A DNA stretch of 32,463 bases from assembly GCA_017483305.1 (NCBI GenBank), contig JAFULC010000033.1:1-32463 (forward strand), written 5' to 3'. The notes beneath the pieces were generated by a model. That model was given only the letters and a program-made list of their open reading frames with translations. It had not been told where the DNA came from and made no database searches. The first letter of the stretch is position 1. Each line of letters opens with the position of its first letter. Below are positions 28,247 to 32,298 of the stretch, one piece after another. The DNA comes from Clostridia bacterium (GTDB lineage Bacteria; Bacillota; Clostridia; Oscillospirales; CAG-272). A program made the position numbers and the translations under genes.

Positions 28247-28798
28247 TCATATGTTATATTGTTTTTTCAGCTTTTTTATCAGCTCGGTAAAGGGGACTAT
28301 TAATAAACCCACAATGAAATTGCTTATGCCGTGAGTCACGTCAAAAGCGACACCTGCCGCCATCCACGTGAGTATCCCGTTCCAATCCAATCCGAAAAAC
28401 AAAGCCTGTCCCGGAGCATACAGTATGCCAAACGCGAATCCGAACAGAGAGCAAACCACGGGATAGACCACGCAGCAAAGCCACCTCGGCATTTTCTTCG
28501 GCAGGATCATCGTTATCGCCCACAGGATAGTCCAGATATACAGATATGGCATCCACCACAGAGCAAATCCCGCATAGAGTCCTTCGATCATCACGTAAAT
28601 ATAGATCGATATCAATGCGTACCCTCTGAACGATAGCGTGAGCACCATGATCAGCATCCCGAGCAGGTGGATGTTAGGCAAAACCGCCATGATAACTCTT
28701 GAACAGAACATCAAAGAGCCCATCACAGCGCAGATCACCATCATCAGTATGCGCCTCCGCCAGATATCCTTTGGGCCTTTTTTACTTTGTGTAGACAA
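28247..28798 (-). CDS. ECF transporter S component, probable cobalamin type
   Basis: About 183 residues with five to six hydrophobic segments. The first helix region 'FCSRVIMAVLPNIHLLGMLIM' and the aromatic 'LWWMPYLYIWTILWAI' resemble S components of group II ECF transporters, and a basic 'KKGPKDIWRRR' precedes helix 1. The start is uncertain: TTG 28798 with GGGGAG about 10 bases ahead keeps the basic N-terminus, while ATG 28744 has a stronger GGAGG. A longer GTG 28819 also exists. It overlaps or touches the DUF4430 gene, so they are coupled. The upstream cobalamin riboswitch implies B12 or a precursor as ligand. The ATPase and EcfT partners must be encoded elsewhere. Confidence 0.8.
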   Translation of the reverse strand: MSTQSKKGPKDIWRRRILMMVICAVMGSLMFCSRVIMAVLPNIHLLGMLIMVLTLSFRGYALISIYIYVMIEGLYAGFALWWMPYLYIWTILWAITMILPKKMPRWLCCVVYPVVCSLFGFAFGILYAPGQALFFGLDWNGILTWMAAGVAFDVTHGISNFIVGLLIVPFTELIKKLKKQYNI

Positions 28799-29195
28799 AT
28801 CTGAAGCTCTCCCCACCACTTATTTTTTGGTCGTTTACACCGTAGGGCATCATAGTCTCACCCTGATAAAATCCCCAATACGCCTTATCGTTATCCCAGC
28901 TTGCAAGGATTCCGTTTAGCGTATCAAAAAAGCTCGGATCATTGATGAGCTCGTGCTCGTACATGGCTTCTCCAAGGGTCTCCTTGTCGGTTTTAAGTGT
29001 GACAGTGATCATCTTATCACCTGCCTCAATCTCAAGGGTAACTGTCTTGGCACCCTCGCCGAGCGTTACGTCAGAGGTATATGTTGCATTGTCCCAAAGA
29101 GACGGATCCACTTCGGTGTTGTTGCAGCCAACGAAGCAGAGAAGTGAAATAACGACCAGAATAACCGACGTTACCGATAAAAATGTTTTTTTCAT
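28782..29195 (-). CDS. DUF4430 lipoprotein (transcobalamin-like domain), probable cobalamin-binding
   Basis: A 137-residue exported lipoprotein. The signal peptide 'MKKTFLSVTSVILVVISLL' is followed by the lipobox FVGC (about 22-25), then a short linker and a DUF4430-type domain with 'GDKMITVTLKT', 'YWGFYQGETMMPYGVNDQKI' and the closing 'FRFVYTK'. DUF4430 is related to the C-terminal beta domain of eukaryotic transcobalamin/intrinsic factor, so surface capture of corrinoids is likely. AAAGGA stands before ATG 29195; the open frame upstream runs through the leader and is not coding. It follows the riboswitch and precedes the S component. Confidence 0.88.
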   Translation of the reverse strand: MKKTFLSVTSVILVVISLLCFVGCNNTEVDPSLWDNATYTSDVTLGEGAKTVTLEIEAGDKMITVTLKTDKETLGEAMYEHELINDPSFFDTLNGILASWDNDKAYWGFYQGETMMPYGVNDQKISGGESFRFVYTK

Positions 29196-29270
29196 AAAAA
29201 AATAAATCCTTTCTTTTTTCACAAAAAGGATAAAATAAAAGCGCTCTCTCCGTGAGGACGAAGCGAACGC

Positions 29271-29295
29271 AAAAAAAGATACCCTGCCCGTATCT
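29271..29295 (-). terminator. Riboswitch expression-platform terminator
   Basis: On the minus strand AGATAC (complement of 29290-29295) pairs with GTATCT (complement of 29277-29282) around a 7-nt loop and is followed by seven T residues (29271-29277). The left arm is also part of the antiterminator, so it forms only when that pairing is blocked. Confidence 0.85.
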
Positions 29296-29531
29296 GCAAA
29301 AACGATCGCGCCTCTCACTCTGCCCAGAGACCTTTATCGAGCACAGAACGGTAAGCATTCCGACTTGATCGTTTGCAGATAGCAAACGAAGATACGGTAA
29401 TGGCTGTTGCCGCGGATTCCCACCGCAGTTTCCTTACCCCCGAGCAGTACCGTCATACAGGAATGAACCTCCGCAGTACGCCCGACAACAGATCACTTTC
29501 GCGACCCGATGAGCTGTGTTATTCTTTTGTG
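29282..29531 (-). promoter_or_regulatory. Cobalamin riboswitch with antiterminator
   Basis: The minus-strand leader contains GCGGTGGGAATCCGCGGC (complement of 29409-29426), matching the conserved core of cobalamin aptamers, then a CCATTACCGT stretch where CCGCTACTGT is usual. AAGTCGGAATGCTTACC (complement of about 29350-29366) resembles the B12 box. Downstream, TATCTGCAAACGATC (complement of 29367-29381) can pair with GATCGTTTTTGCAGATA (complement of 29291-29307) as an antiterminator. B12 binding should favour the terminator and switch off the DUF4430 and S-component genes. Confidence 0.87.
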
Positions 29532-29567: not shown

Positions 29568-29698
29568 TAGCAAAACAAAAAACATCACAAATTTTTTAAA
29601 AATTTACCGATAAACCCAACCTTTCTCTGATTTGAACTGTCTATAAGGTGAAGCAGCTTCAAAAGATAATCCACAAACCCAACGAAACAGGAGAACAA
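29568..29698. other. Divergent intergenic region upstream of the sigma factor gene
   Basis: About 130 AT-rich bases lie between the B12 operon promoter and the sigma gene. I find no SigA promoter with good boxes for the plus strand. An AAC (618-620 of the 29000s) and a GTC (639-641) 18 bases apart faintly resemble an ECF-type promoter, which would mean self-regulation, but the match is weak. AGGAGA lies 6 bases before ATG 29699. Confidence 0.4.
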
Positions 29699-32257
29699 AT
29701 GAATTATAAGGATCAAAACGACGCCTCCTTGGTCGAGCTCACACTTCTCGGAAATGAAAGGGCATTCGAGGAGCTTGTTAAAAGATGGCAGAGCGCGGCT
29801 ATGAAAAGCGCAGTCTCGATAACCAGCAATCATTATACCGCAGAGGATGCGGTCCAGGATGCCTTTGTCACGGCTTGGCAAAGGCTTGATACTCTGCGCG
29901 ACCGCGAAAAATTCGGCGCATGGATCTGCCGCATAGCGCGTTATCGCGCAATAAATCTCGCCATACGCTACCGTGAGCATATCCCGTTCGATCTCATTGA
30001 AAACACCGAGCACGAAGCGTTCGACGATCTTATCGGATATTATGATAACGAGCTTGAGAGCAAGGAGCTCATGTATCACGTTGAAAACCTGTCCGAAAAG
30101 GTAAAATCCGTGATAAAAATGTTCTATTTCGAGGGTCTTTCCGTGGAGACTATTTCAAAGAAAATGGATCTTGCAGTCGGAACAGTAAAAAGTCGACTTC
30201 ATGACGGCAGGATCAAGCTGAGAAAGGAAATGGGCCTTATGGATAAGAATAATGAAAAGGAAACCTTGCTTGAAGCGGTCATGAGACGCGTCAATGAGCT
30301 GAAAAAATGGAAATTAAGAAAAAACAAAAAGGGATTTGAAAAAGAATATAACGATTGTCTTACAGAGGTCGAGGATCTTCCCGAATCCGAGCAGAAATAC
30401 CACGCTCTCGCAGACGTGCTCAATCTCGGATATTGGTATCTGTCCAATGAGAAGAAGGAGGAGCTTGAAAAAAGGATCAAGGAAGCCGCGATAAAAGGAA
30501 ATAACAGAGAAGTGCTTGGATATTCGATCACGCGCGCCTCGGATAATCTGTCGGGCAAGGCAAAGATCGAATTTGATCTCAACGAGATCATTCCCGAGCT
30601 TGAGTCTTACGGCTTGACCGAGGCGATCGGCTCCGTCTATTTCTGGATAGGATACGAATACTTCTCGTCACTGCACGACGTTCAGTCAGCCAAGGAATAC
30701 TTCGAAAAAGCAATAAATATATTGCCACCCGACGATGTTCATTATGCAACCTCAAAGGCAGCGATCGAAATCTTTGAAAAACTTGGAGAGGTACTGAACG
30801 ACAAAATGAAATATGTAATAAGCTGCGTAGGTGAGGAATACAGACTTGATGGCTCTAAGCTTCTGTTCTGGTCGCAGCCGGGCTTCAGTCCGGGTTGGCT
30901 TCAAGGATTTTCTAAAAGATCCTGCGACCATCCCACCTATTACATTTCTCTTACTGACGGCTTGATGTACGACGAGGAAATGAAGGTCGGTGAGACTGTT
31001 AAAAGCTTTGACGGCACGGCAACCCTGAAGCTCATTTCCGACAATGAGGAGATCGACACGCCCTGCGGAGCCTTTCACAATTGCCACGTGTTCGTATGTA
31101 AGGATATCCGATTCGAGACCACGGTATATTACAAGCGCAACATCGGTATCGTAGCTTATAAACACACCTCCGTAATTCCTCAGAACTCCGCAGAACATGC
31201 GCACGCCTTCTTCAAGCTTGCATCCTACAAAATAAACGGTGGCACGGGTCTTATTCCGTTTGCTGAGGGAAATACTTGGACGTATACGAGCGAAAGTGTA
31301 GATGGGCTCTGCGATTACGAGATCAAATACGAGGTCACTTACTTCGACGGTAAAAAGGTCATAGTATCTCATCCGTCTTATAAGTTCAAGGATAGCTATA
31401 ATAAAAAAAGCTGGGACGACGTTATTCACTATCTCCGTAGCTTCTACGTTAAGGAGATCGACGAAAACAAAGAATGTCTCAATGACGTCTCCAAGGAAAT
31501 GATCTTGGCAGAGCAATTGGCAAAAACGCCTTGGCAAAAGGCACATACCGCCGTTGCAAATGGTGTTATGAGAAGAATTTTTGCGACAGACCTCGATTAC
31601 GATCCAAATGCAAAAGAGAAGGGATACCGAAATTTCTTCAATCTCCTCGACGTTTCCAAGGAAGACGGAAAAACCTATATTTTCGATAATCGCGATTACG
31701 GATTTGAGTGGAAGGAATACGTGCACGAGGCTCGGCCTCTGCTCTATAACGACCTATACTGCATCTTGTCGGAAAATATCGGTTGTCTCTGGAACGACAA
31801 TATCAAGGCAGGATATGAATTCACCTACACCTGTCCCGTATTCCGCAAGGACACGGAGTTTGTCTGTAACGCTAAGGTCGAGACCTGCGAGCCTATAGAA
31901 ACCAAAGCGGGAAGGTTCGAAAACTGCATAAAGCTCTCGTATAGCAGCAACCACGAGACCTGGACTAACGGAGTTTTGTTCAGAGTTGTAGATGCCGATT
32001 GGTACTTTGCCGAGGGCATTGGACTTGTAAAGACAGTTTTCAAGCTCGACAATTTCACCAGGGAGATCATATACGAGCTTTCCTCCTACAAGGGCGAGGG
32101 AAGCGGCTATATGCCGATCATCCCCGATACCGAAAGATTTTACGAGCTTGTCGGCGAGGATCCCAAGCTTCACGGCTCTGTACGATACGTTTATGCAATC
32201 GACGACGAGGGCGAACTCAAAATTCTCACAGACCAAAAGGGAACTATTGACATATAA
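29699..32257 (+). CDS. ECF-type RNA polymerase sigma factor fused to a large TPR-like and repeated beta-domain sensor region
   Basis: An 852-residue protein whose first 180 residues are a normal ECF sigma factor: sigma2 (about 20-90, 'AEDAVQDAFVTAWQRL' binds core polymerase) and sigma4 (about 122-178, 'GLSVETISKKMDLAVGTVKSR', -35 recognition). A helical TPR-like segment follows (about 186-365, 'VQSAKEYFEKAINILPPDD'). Then come two related beta-rich domains (about 368-516 and 690-806), each with GxFxNC (CGAFHNC 456-462, AGRFENC 737-743), a later GIGxV and a closing 'L-S/A-SYK'. A third, unlike segment (517-690) lies between. No membrane segment or signal peptide is seen, so it is cytoplasmic. 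AGGAGA supports ATG 29699; an upstream in-frame ATG at 29648 lacks one. No anti-sigma gene follows, and a terminator comes directly after. Confidence 0.87.
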   Translation: MNYKDQNDASLVELTLLGNERAFEELVKRWQSAAMKSAVSITSNHYTAEDAVQDAFVTAWQRLDTLRDREKFGAWICRIARYRAINLAIRYREHIPFDLIENTEHEAFDDLIGYYDNELESKELMYHVENLSEKVKSVIKMFYFEGLSVETISKKMDLAVGTVKSRLHDGRIKLRKEMGLMDKNNEKETLLEAVMRRVNELKKWKLRKNKKGFEKEYNDCLTEVEDLPESEQKYHALADVLNLGYWYLSNEKKEELEKRIKEAAIKGNNREVLGYSITRASDNLSGKAKIEFDLNEIIPELESYGLTEAIGSVYFWIGYEYFSSLHDVQSAKEYFEKAINILPPDDVHYATSKAAIEIFEKLGEVLNDKMKYVISCVGEEYRLDGSKLLFWSQPGFSPGWLQGFSKRSCDHPTYYISLTDGLMYDEEMKVGETVKSFDGTATLKLISDNEEIDTPCGAFHNCHVFVCKDIRFETTVYYKRNIGIVAYKHTSVIPQNSAEHAHAFFKLASYKINGGTGLIPFAEGNTWTYTSESVDGLCDYEIKYEVTYFDGKKVIVSHPSYKFKDSYNKKSWDDVIHYLRSFYVKEIDENKECLNDVSKEMILAEQLAKTPWQKAHTAVANGVMRRIFATDLDYDPNAKEKGYRNFFNLLDVSKEDGKTYIFDNRDYGFEWKEYVHEARPLLYNDLYCILSENIGCLWNDNIKAGYEFTYTCPVFRKDTEFVCNAKVETCEPIETKAGRFENCIKLSYSSNHETWTNGVLFRVVDADWYFAEGIGLVKTVFKLDNFTREIIYELSSYKGEGSGYMPIIPDTERFYELVGEDPKLHGSVRYVYAIDDEGELKILTDQKGTIDI

Positions 32258-32266
32258 CATAAAGAA

Positions 32267-32298
32267 TGCCTCACGGGCTTACCCGTGAGGCAGTTTTT
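32267..32298 (+). terminator. Strong intrinsic terminator of the sigma factor gene
   Basis: TGCCTCACGGG (32267-32277) pairs perfectly with CCCGTGAGGCA (32282-32292) around a CTTA loop, followed by GTTTTT. It starts 9 bases after the stop codon. Confidence 0.93.

Follow-up and report, generated by a model that had tools for sequence, protein, structure and literature searches.

An ECF sigma factor fused to a long tail with two DUF3108-like domains, probably representing an undescribed clostridial group with a shared promoter

Background

The window analyzed here is a stretch of 32,463 nucleotides (contig JAFULC010000033.1, positions 1 to 32,463 of the forward strand) of the Clostridia bacterium assembly GCA_017483305.1, assigned to the Oscillospirales. 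Close to its end, on the forward strand at 29699..32257, lies a gene that joins the core of an extracytoplasmic function (ECF) sigma factor and a tail of 667 residues in one reading frame. This fusion recurs in many genomes of one clostridial order, with conserved parts and an apparently single origin, with neither a conserved partner gene nor a membrane helix, and with a promoter that the fused genes share. The reading that we favor, which is fairly probable though well short of secure, is that of a one-protein signaling system, in which a self-directed sigma core would be governed by a tail standing in place of an anti-sigma factor and would be switched by binding to the distal domains. The tail is likely to be regulatory; that it controls the core, and that its distal domains receive a signal, we infer. 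A preliminary description made from the letters of the window had taken the gene for a possible signaling system of this kind, an interpretation that is partly supported by the present analysis.

The family probably constitutes a hitherto undescribed group among the ECF sigma factors with fused tails. It is set apart from ECF41, ECF42, ECF48/52/53 and ECF57 by the features compared, a comparison outside which ECF262, ECF264 and ECF288 stand. The literature searched, which took in parts of PMC8999054, PMC8103513, PMC9023288 and PMC3426412 and to which the 2021 ECF classification is external, yielded no description of this fusion; statements below that cite these papers refer to the same parts of them. 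The earlier suggestion that described groups lack such a tail may hold, but the tail domain itself is not new, since it belongs to a known Pfam family, PF21347.

Protein architecture

The frame, which is the last gene on contig C24 of a 2.0 Mb source genome that is 97% complete, runs from an ATG at 29699 to a stop ending at 32257 and encodes 852 residues, as a single ECF core (residues 1–180) and the 667-residue tail, in keeping with the layout first described; homologues have the same frame. It is also open further upstream, from a GTG at 29648, and the ATG was taken as the start because this GTG falls within the promoter presented below. A comparison with Pfam found PF04542 (Sigma70_r2, residues 26–87, 29774..29959, E 5e-12) and PF08281 (Sigma70_r4_2, residues 128–174, 30080..30220, E 1e-10), both above cut-off and with no other sigma-70 region, the composition that defines ECF sigma factors, and the TIGR02937 sigma70-ECF model matched with 71.2 bits against a cut-off of 42.9. 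Judged by this core and by the -35 box of its promoter, the protein is an ECF sigma factor. The mean pairwise identity of 28 aligned proteins is 0.61 in sigma region 2 and 0.56 in sigma region 4, as against 0.26 in the linker between them, where conservation within the core is lowest and no residue is invariant (alignment A2 drew on 27 of 30 family loci from the named-genome scan described below, without L057 and without L059 and L060, both contig-cut).

The helical or TPR-like part and the GxFxNC domains that had been proposed for the tail are both found in the same frame. Next to the core, a sigma4-proximal segment (residues 186–250, 30254..30448), which reads by eye as helical, has a mean pairwise identity of 0.61 and is thus conserved like the sigma core; most of the remaining tail lies between 0.32 and 0.47, with residues 346–365 at only 0.22. 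A TPR-like segment follows (residues 291–345, 30569..30733), in which TPR_8 matches weakly and below cut-off at residues 313–341 (E 0.006), and TPR_2 was matched in 9 of the 18 proteins of alignment A1, the window protein being one of the 18. The first GxFxNC domain (residues 366–517, motif at 457–462, 30794..31249) has profile matches to the second domain and to small proteins of other Bacillota. The second, which contains an insert (residues 518–800, motif at 738–743, 31250..32098), has a profile match to the first and carries PF21347 (DUF3108_like) at residues 722–779, with an E-value of 5e-9 and 36.8 bits against the Pfam gathering cut-off of 27. In alignment A1 the sigma families were found in all 18 proteins and DUF3108_like in 17 (E <= 0.01). 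The two domains are homologous to each other (residues 366–518 against 640–805, hhalign probability 97.9%, E 3e-13), and the cysteine of both motifs is invariant across the 28 aligned proteins. Residues 801–852 (32099..32254) appear to form a C-terminal partial repeat, aligned by hhalign to the start of the second domain with a probability of 79%.

SnoaL, WD40-like repeats and zinc-finger domains were absent from Pfam scans of the window protein (matches listed to E 1) and of the 18 proteins of A1 (to E 0.01), and no membrane helix was found in 59 family members, of which a few are truncated at a contig end; the mean hydropathy over 19 residues rises to 1.54 at most. Just 3' of the stop, as previously noted, lies an intrinsic-terminator-like hairpin (32267..32292, forward strand) of 11 pairs, 8 of them GC, followed by GTTTTTG.

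Distribution and origin of the fusion

Orthologues with the same fusion, for which the preliminary description had proposed a search, are widespread. A query with the tail alone matched 60 of the 146 genomes of the same family (E <= 1e-5), distributed over 42 of 71 genera. In the order as a whole, 43 of 295 genomes matched the full-length profile at E <= 1e-30; five of these matched in the sigma core only and two in an extra C-terminal module only, leaving 36 genomes, in eight families as assigned from the match table, that hold the fused gene whole or in large part. When 398 genomes sampled from the phylum were searched, the complete GxFxNC region was matched at E <= 1e-6 only in the genome of the window itself, and 32 others matched over about one domain. 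Among the best 80 of 187 loci in a scan of named genomes, 30 were family members and 50 matched in the sigma core or little more; all 30 members come from assemblies labelled Clostridia or families therein, most with titles that name the animal gut or rumen. Viral contigs scanned with the window protein gave no match, and no plasmid or phage record covered 80% of the query, the matches listed being to the sigma core or little more.

Family members fall into two length classes, one of about 850 residues, to which the window protein belongs, and one of about 1060 residues with the extra C-terminal module; among 59 members 13 are short, 44 are long and two are cut, and two members of about 570 residues seem to bear a single GxFxNC domain. 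A few family genes have one or two in-frame stops (G145:C175, G062:C11 (L024) and G068:C37:68623-70602) and may be pseudogenes or reflect assembly errors. In a tree of 171 sigma cores, 80 tail-bearing genes form one clade with a support of 0.88, which otherwise contains only two genes, one broken by a stop and one truncated at a contig end. Since the tail-bearing cores form one clade, the simplest reading of the tree is that the fusion arose once. The identities of the core and of the distal tail are correlated across members (r = 0.87 over 378 pairs).

A shared promoter and its sites across genomes

The family genes share an ECF-type promoter of the form CCAACCTTTT-N12-TGTCTATAAG; to look for a conserved motif upstream of the orthologues had been among the checks suggested in the preliminary description. 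In the window it occupies 29616..29650 on the forward strand, with the -35 box CCAACCTTTC at 29616–29625 and the -10 box TGTCTAT at 29638–29644, and scores 31.6 bits in a leave-one-out test, compared with a family median of 29.3. The pattern AACC-N17-[GA]TCT is present in 46 of 59 upstream regions as against 0.27 expected from shuffles, and AACC-N17-[GA]TC occurs at one spacing in 53 of them, the window included; among the six that remain, the same boxes stand 16 bases apart in four and 15 apart in one, and the last has a CTCT -10 box. These 59 regions come from a motif-based finder after removal of repeats, and do not include genes that escaped it, such as L007, L009 and L034. The search pattern itself prescribes AACC and TC; the neighboring positions are free, and there the 53 regions agree on TTTT after AACC (52, 51, 50 and 47 regions), on the T before GTC (49) and on the G (47). 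An AAC motif in the -35 box upstream of the gene's own coding region is usual for ECF sigma factors, though not obligatory. The -10 box, GTCT or ATCT, differs from the usual CGT, so that the ECF-typical part is the -35 box only, an AAC-type -35 box being that of ECF promoters (PMC3426412).

That the promoter belongs to the gene follows from a genome of the same genus, G104, that has lost it. There (L268, C6:138000-146000) the upstream flank matches the window at 96% identity and still has the promoter, the ribosome site and the ATG, but the whole frame is missing: the terminator comes next, and about 3 kb of different DNA, containing a 945-residue frame, separates the terminator from the downstream flank. 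A promoter kept without its frame also means that the gene is dispensable.

Strong sites are concentrated upstream of the family genes. In the genome of the window, the gene's own site is the sole match with at most one mismatch to CCAACCTTTT-N12-TGTCTWT; a shorter pattern gives two more sites, on contig C37, and with up to three mismatches the count is 20, compared with 18 in the control. In 34 genomes chosen for holding the gene, 28 of 33 sites with at most one mismatch precede family genes, as assigned by coordinates, and with up to two mismatches 101 sites compare with 88 for a reversed-pattern control, indicating no general excess beyond the family genes. Across the 146 family genomes there are 49 sites of the strict form, compared with 4 for the reversed control. 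Thirty-two of these sites precede family tails (two weak tail matches were left out of the assignment), one precedes a contig-cut family gene (L233) and one is the G104 scar. Twelve of the remaining 15 were examined (those in G049, G054 and G098 are not among them), and eight of the twelve sit in long frames and look like chance. The other four are upstream of plausible genes: the only frame overlapping L269, which precedes a gene for a 162-residue membrane protein, is one of 142 codons on the opposite strand, L270 lies outside any frame of at least 120 codons and precedes a 148-residue lipoprotein gene, and L271 (249-residue membrane protein) and L230 overlap frames. Further strong sites precede a solute-binding protein gene divergent from a family gene (L232) and a MutS-domain protein gene (L231). 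No site of at least 12 bits was found at any of eight L269-homologue loci or four close L231-homologue loci (best 6.5). Targets other than the family genes thus look few, and are not conserved where tested.

From its own upstream region, the sigma factor may be predicted to recognize the shared promoter. The conservation of that promoter upstream of the gene itself implies autoregulation, and positive autoregulation is likely to be the core of the circuit.

A second family of fused ECF sigma factors, about 550 residues long (L218–L228, together with L002/L333 in the genome of the window), was encountered in the course of these searches, with a tail that has weak matches to helix-turn-helix-type Pfam families only. 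Its 11 members outside the window genome have the promoter AACC-N15-GTCT, with a spacer two bases shorter, and in most of them the palindrome GAAAGCTTTC, or a sequence near it, lies just past the promoter. For L002/L333 (contig C17:92920) the promoter is absent from the 220 bases upstream.

Gene neighborhoods

The absence of an anti-sigma gene downstream, also part of the preliminary description, is borne out among relatives; in the window it is not visible, the contig ending at 32463, 206 bases past the stop, and it was for this reason judged from the relatives. None of 162 open reading frames (ORFs) within 3 kb of 31 members, the window included, has both a membrane helix and the zinc-finger signature of an anti-sigma factor. 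In contrast, among the five core-only matches of the order scan, three (L281, L282 and L283) adjoin a zinc-finger/membrane anti-sigma gene; L284 has a different neighbor with a membrane helix and L285 is itself a long fusion. Nor is there another recurrent partner. Among 412 ORFs around the 31 loci, the sole cluster present in at least four loci is a generic ABC ATPase (six loci), and no Pfam family, YCII included, is found more than twice among 55 adjacent ORFs (best 25 of 80 families, ranked by count). MutS domain V proteins adjoin two family genes in this set and follow the strong site L231, which may be coincidence.

Elsewhere in the window, a divergent pair of genes for a membrane protein and a lipoprotein-like protein (28247–29437, reverse strand) lies behind a weak match to the AdoCbl-II riboswitch (19.7 bits, gathering score 36.5); an Rfam scan of the window gave nothing at gathering scores. 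Between 23471 and 28087, genes for an AraC regulator, a PIG-L deacetylase, a glucosamine-6-phosphate-deaminase-like protein, a PfkB kinase and a class II aldolase follow one another in what looks like an amino-sugar degradation cluster.

The tail domains in other proteins

The distal GxFxNC domains match small proteins of other Bacillota (L136–L164), of roughly 200–300 residues, which contain a homologous TPAGxFxNC...YYKxGVG domain (profile A3, E down to 1e-15). Of 17 such sequences, out of 29, that were recovered, 12 have a lipobox-like N-terminus as judged by eye, three have a membrane anchor and two are M56/BlaR1-type proteins with the domain at their C-terminal end. PF21347 matches these last two with E-values of 4e-5 (L153, below cut-off) and 1.8e-6 (L154, above cut-off), and reaches only an E-value of 0.0075 in the lipoprotein L139. 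Two solved structures, 4fvs (E 2e-5) and 3fzx (E 7e-5), are weak matches to the tail domain. XRE-type regulators, namely L286, L287, L289 and the fragment L013:3-746, have as their C-terminal part the same extra module as the long members, with hmmsearch E-values of 2e-49, 1e-42 and 9e-39; L289 is a convergent neighbor of a family gene of 570 residues. The presence of tail modules in other regulators argues that the tail may receive a signal.

Palindromes near the start site

A perfect palindrome of at least eight bases lies just past the -10 box in 36 of 53 genes, compared with a mean of 5.3 and a maximum of 12 in 300 shuffles; the 53 genes include many relatives of one another, which lowers the number of independent cases, and the misplaced row of L059 was counted as negative. 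Twenty-nine of the 36 are centered 12–13 bases after GTC. They comprise 16 different strings (including AAGCGCTT, GAGCGCTC, TGAAAGCTTTCA, CAGATGCATCTG and GCAGCTGC) with eight different central hexamers. A second, weaker excess is found 21–50 bases after GTC (16 of 53, with 4.5 expected and a maximum of 11). The window has an inverted repeat, GAAGC-A-GCTTC (29650..29660, forward strand), near the predicted transcription start, which is odd-centered and stands outside the count of even-length palindromes. Because the symmetry is kept as the sequence changes, the palindrome is a candidate operator, which suggests a dimeric regulator that differs between species. Palindromes also follow -10-like boxes upstream of XRE-type regulators, CAGATGGCCATCTG in L289 and AGGTGCGCACCT in L286.

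Proposed mechanism and alternatives

In the proposed system, the sigma core would bind RNA polymerase and direct it to the CCAACCTTTT-N12-TGTCTA promoter, that of its own gene first, and the use of its own promoter would create positive feedback. The tail would stand in for an anti-sigma factor, with the sigma4-proximal segment coupling the TPR-like part and the two DUF3108-like domains to the core, and a ligand or partner protein bound by the DUF3108-like domains would switch the activity of the sigma factor. By analogy, the mode of action is probably like that of other ECF groups with fused tails. In ECF42 the part of the tail next to sigma4 contacts this region and is needed for activity (PMC9023288), and a coupling of the ECF42 kind fits better than the linker contact of ECF41 because the core-like constraint falls on the sigma4-proximal segment.

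Several points weigh against this proposal. Almost no targets besides the family genes came to light, an odd outcome for a signal-reporting regulator, and the gene is not essential, as its loss in G104 shows. The shared promoter could be used by another sigma factor, and the second fused family has a very similar one. The tail domains could also serve a role that is not regulatory.

In one alternative the protein would transcribe its own gene for the most part, with the sigma core as a mere device of expression control and the tail as the working part, for instance a cytoplasmic binding or scaffold protein that amplifies its own synthesis. The single own-gene site in the window genome, the predominance of family genes behind the close matches in the 34 gene-holding genomes and the bare L269- and L231-homologue loci all agree with this alternative, which we nevertheless hold to be unlikely: a few other strong sites do exist (L269, L270, L232 and L231), strict patterns would miss weaker target promoters, and ECF41 has a single detectable target transcript and yet is regulated by its tail (PMC3426412). 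Autoinhibition as in ECF41, with the tail folded onto the linker between sigma regions 2 and 4 and the sigma factor closed until a small molecule binds, shares with the family the lack of an anti-sigma gene, the narrow predicted target set and the large fused tail. It is less likely still, given a linker with so little conservation, the absence of SnoaL from the Pfam scans and a -35 box unlike TGTCACA (PMC3426412).

Two other alternatives concern the identity of the gene. It might belong to an ECF group already listed with an extension (ECF262 of Ruminococcus albus, ECF264, ECF288 or the unclassified remainder), in which case only the description would be new. Extension-bearing groups of which the mechanism is unknown, some with clostridial model proteins, are tabulated in PMC8999054, where ECF262 and ECF288 are clostridial groups with extensions. 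The extensions given are of 50–200 residues for 19 groups (PMC9023288) and of up to 400 residues (PMC8999054), however, and a tail of 667 to about 870 residues is longer, which does not preclude membership; we allow this alternative a minor but real chance. That two separate genes were joined into this frame by assembly or annotation, the outcome on which the preliminary description would have foundered, has a practically negligible probability and was rejected. The same continuous frame with the same order of parts in many independent genomes excludes chance or misassembly in practice, the sigma cores fall into one clade, and the promoter sits upstream of the fused genes.

The one-protein signaling system may be extended into a more specific picture, for which the prospects are modest and which we offer as speculation. 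The family would then be a class of sigma factors with its own gene as the only conserved target, a self-amplifying one-gene switch whose core has been joined to domains of a mostly extracellular type, and the palindrome at the start site would be bound by a co-evolving dimeric repressor, perhaps one of the module-sharing XRE proteins, that holds the loop off.

Comparison with known systems

The family is widespread in one clostridial order, and its tail exceeds the extension lengths stated in the cited parts of the ECF literature. A target set confined to the gene itself, if true, would be an unusual regulatory design, and the shared promoter makes the system directly testable.

One likeness is to ECF42, which also has a fused tail, TPR-type repeats and no anti-sigma gene, and the counterpart of its sigma4-contacting part is here the most conserved part of the tail (residues 186–250). 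The tails of ECF42 are about 200 residues long (PMC8999054), whereas those of the present family have 667 to about 870 residues with two DUF3108-like domains, the TPR match of the window protein is weak (E 0.006), and the YCII-related neighbor gene of ECF42 is not recurrent among the 55 adjacent ORFs; nor do the 31 loci show a conserved neighbor cluster. ECF41 shares the fused regulatory tail and, with a conserved promoter, a very narrow range of targets (PMC3426412), but its SnoaL-like domain is absent here, no conserved neighbor is found, and its promoter has TGTCACA at -35 and CGTC at -10, in place of CCAACCTTTT and TGTCTA. Like ECF48/52/53, the family has a long C-terminal extension that replaces a separate anti-sigma factor; the fused zinc finger and transmembrane helices of those groups were not found in the Pfam scans and the 59 members, respectively, and the WD40-like repeats of ECF57 did not appear in the Pfam scans either. 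Outside the sigma factors, the tail resembles the DUF3108_like lipoproteins of Bacillota and the M56/BlaR1-type proteins through the homologous TPAGxFxNC...YYKxGVG domain. Most of those proteins look secreted or membrane-bound, whereas in the present family the domain is fused to a sigma factor that has no membrane helix.

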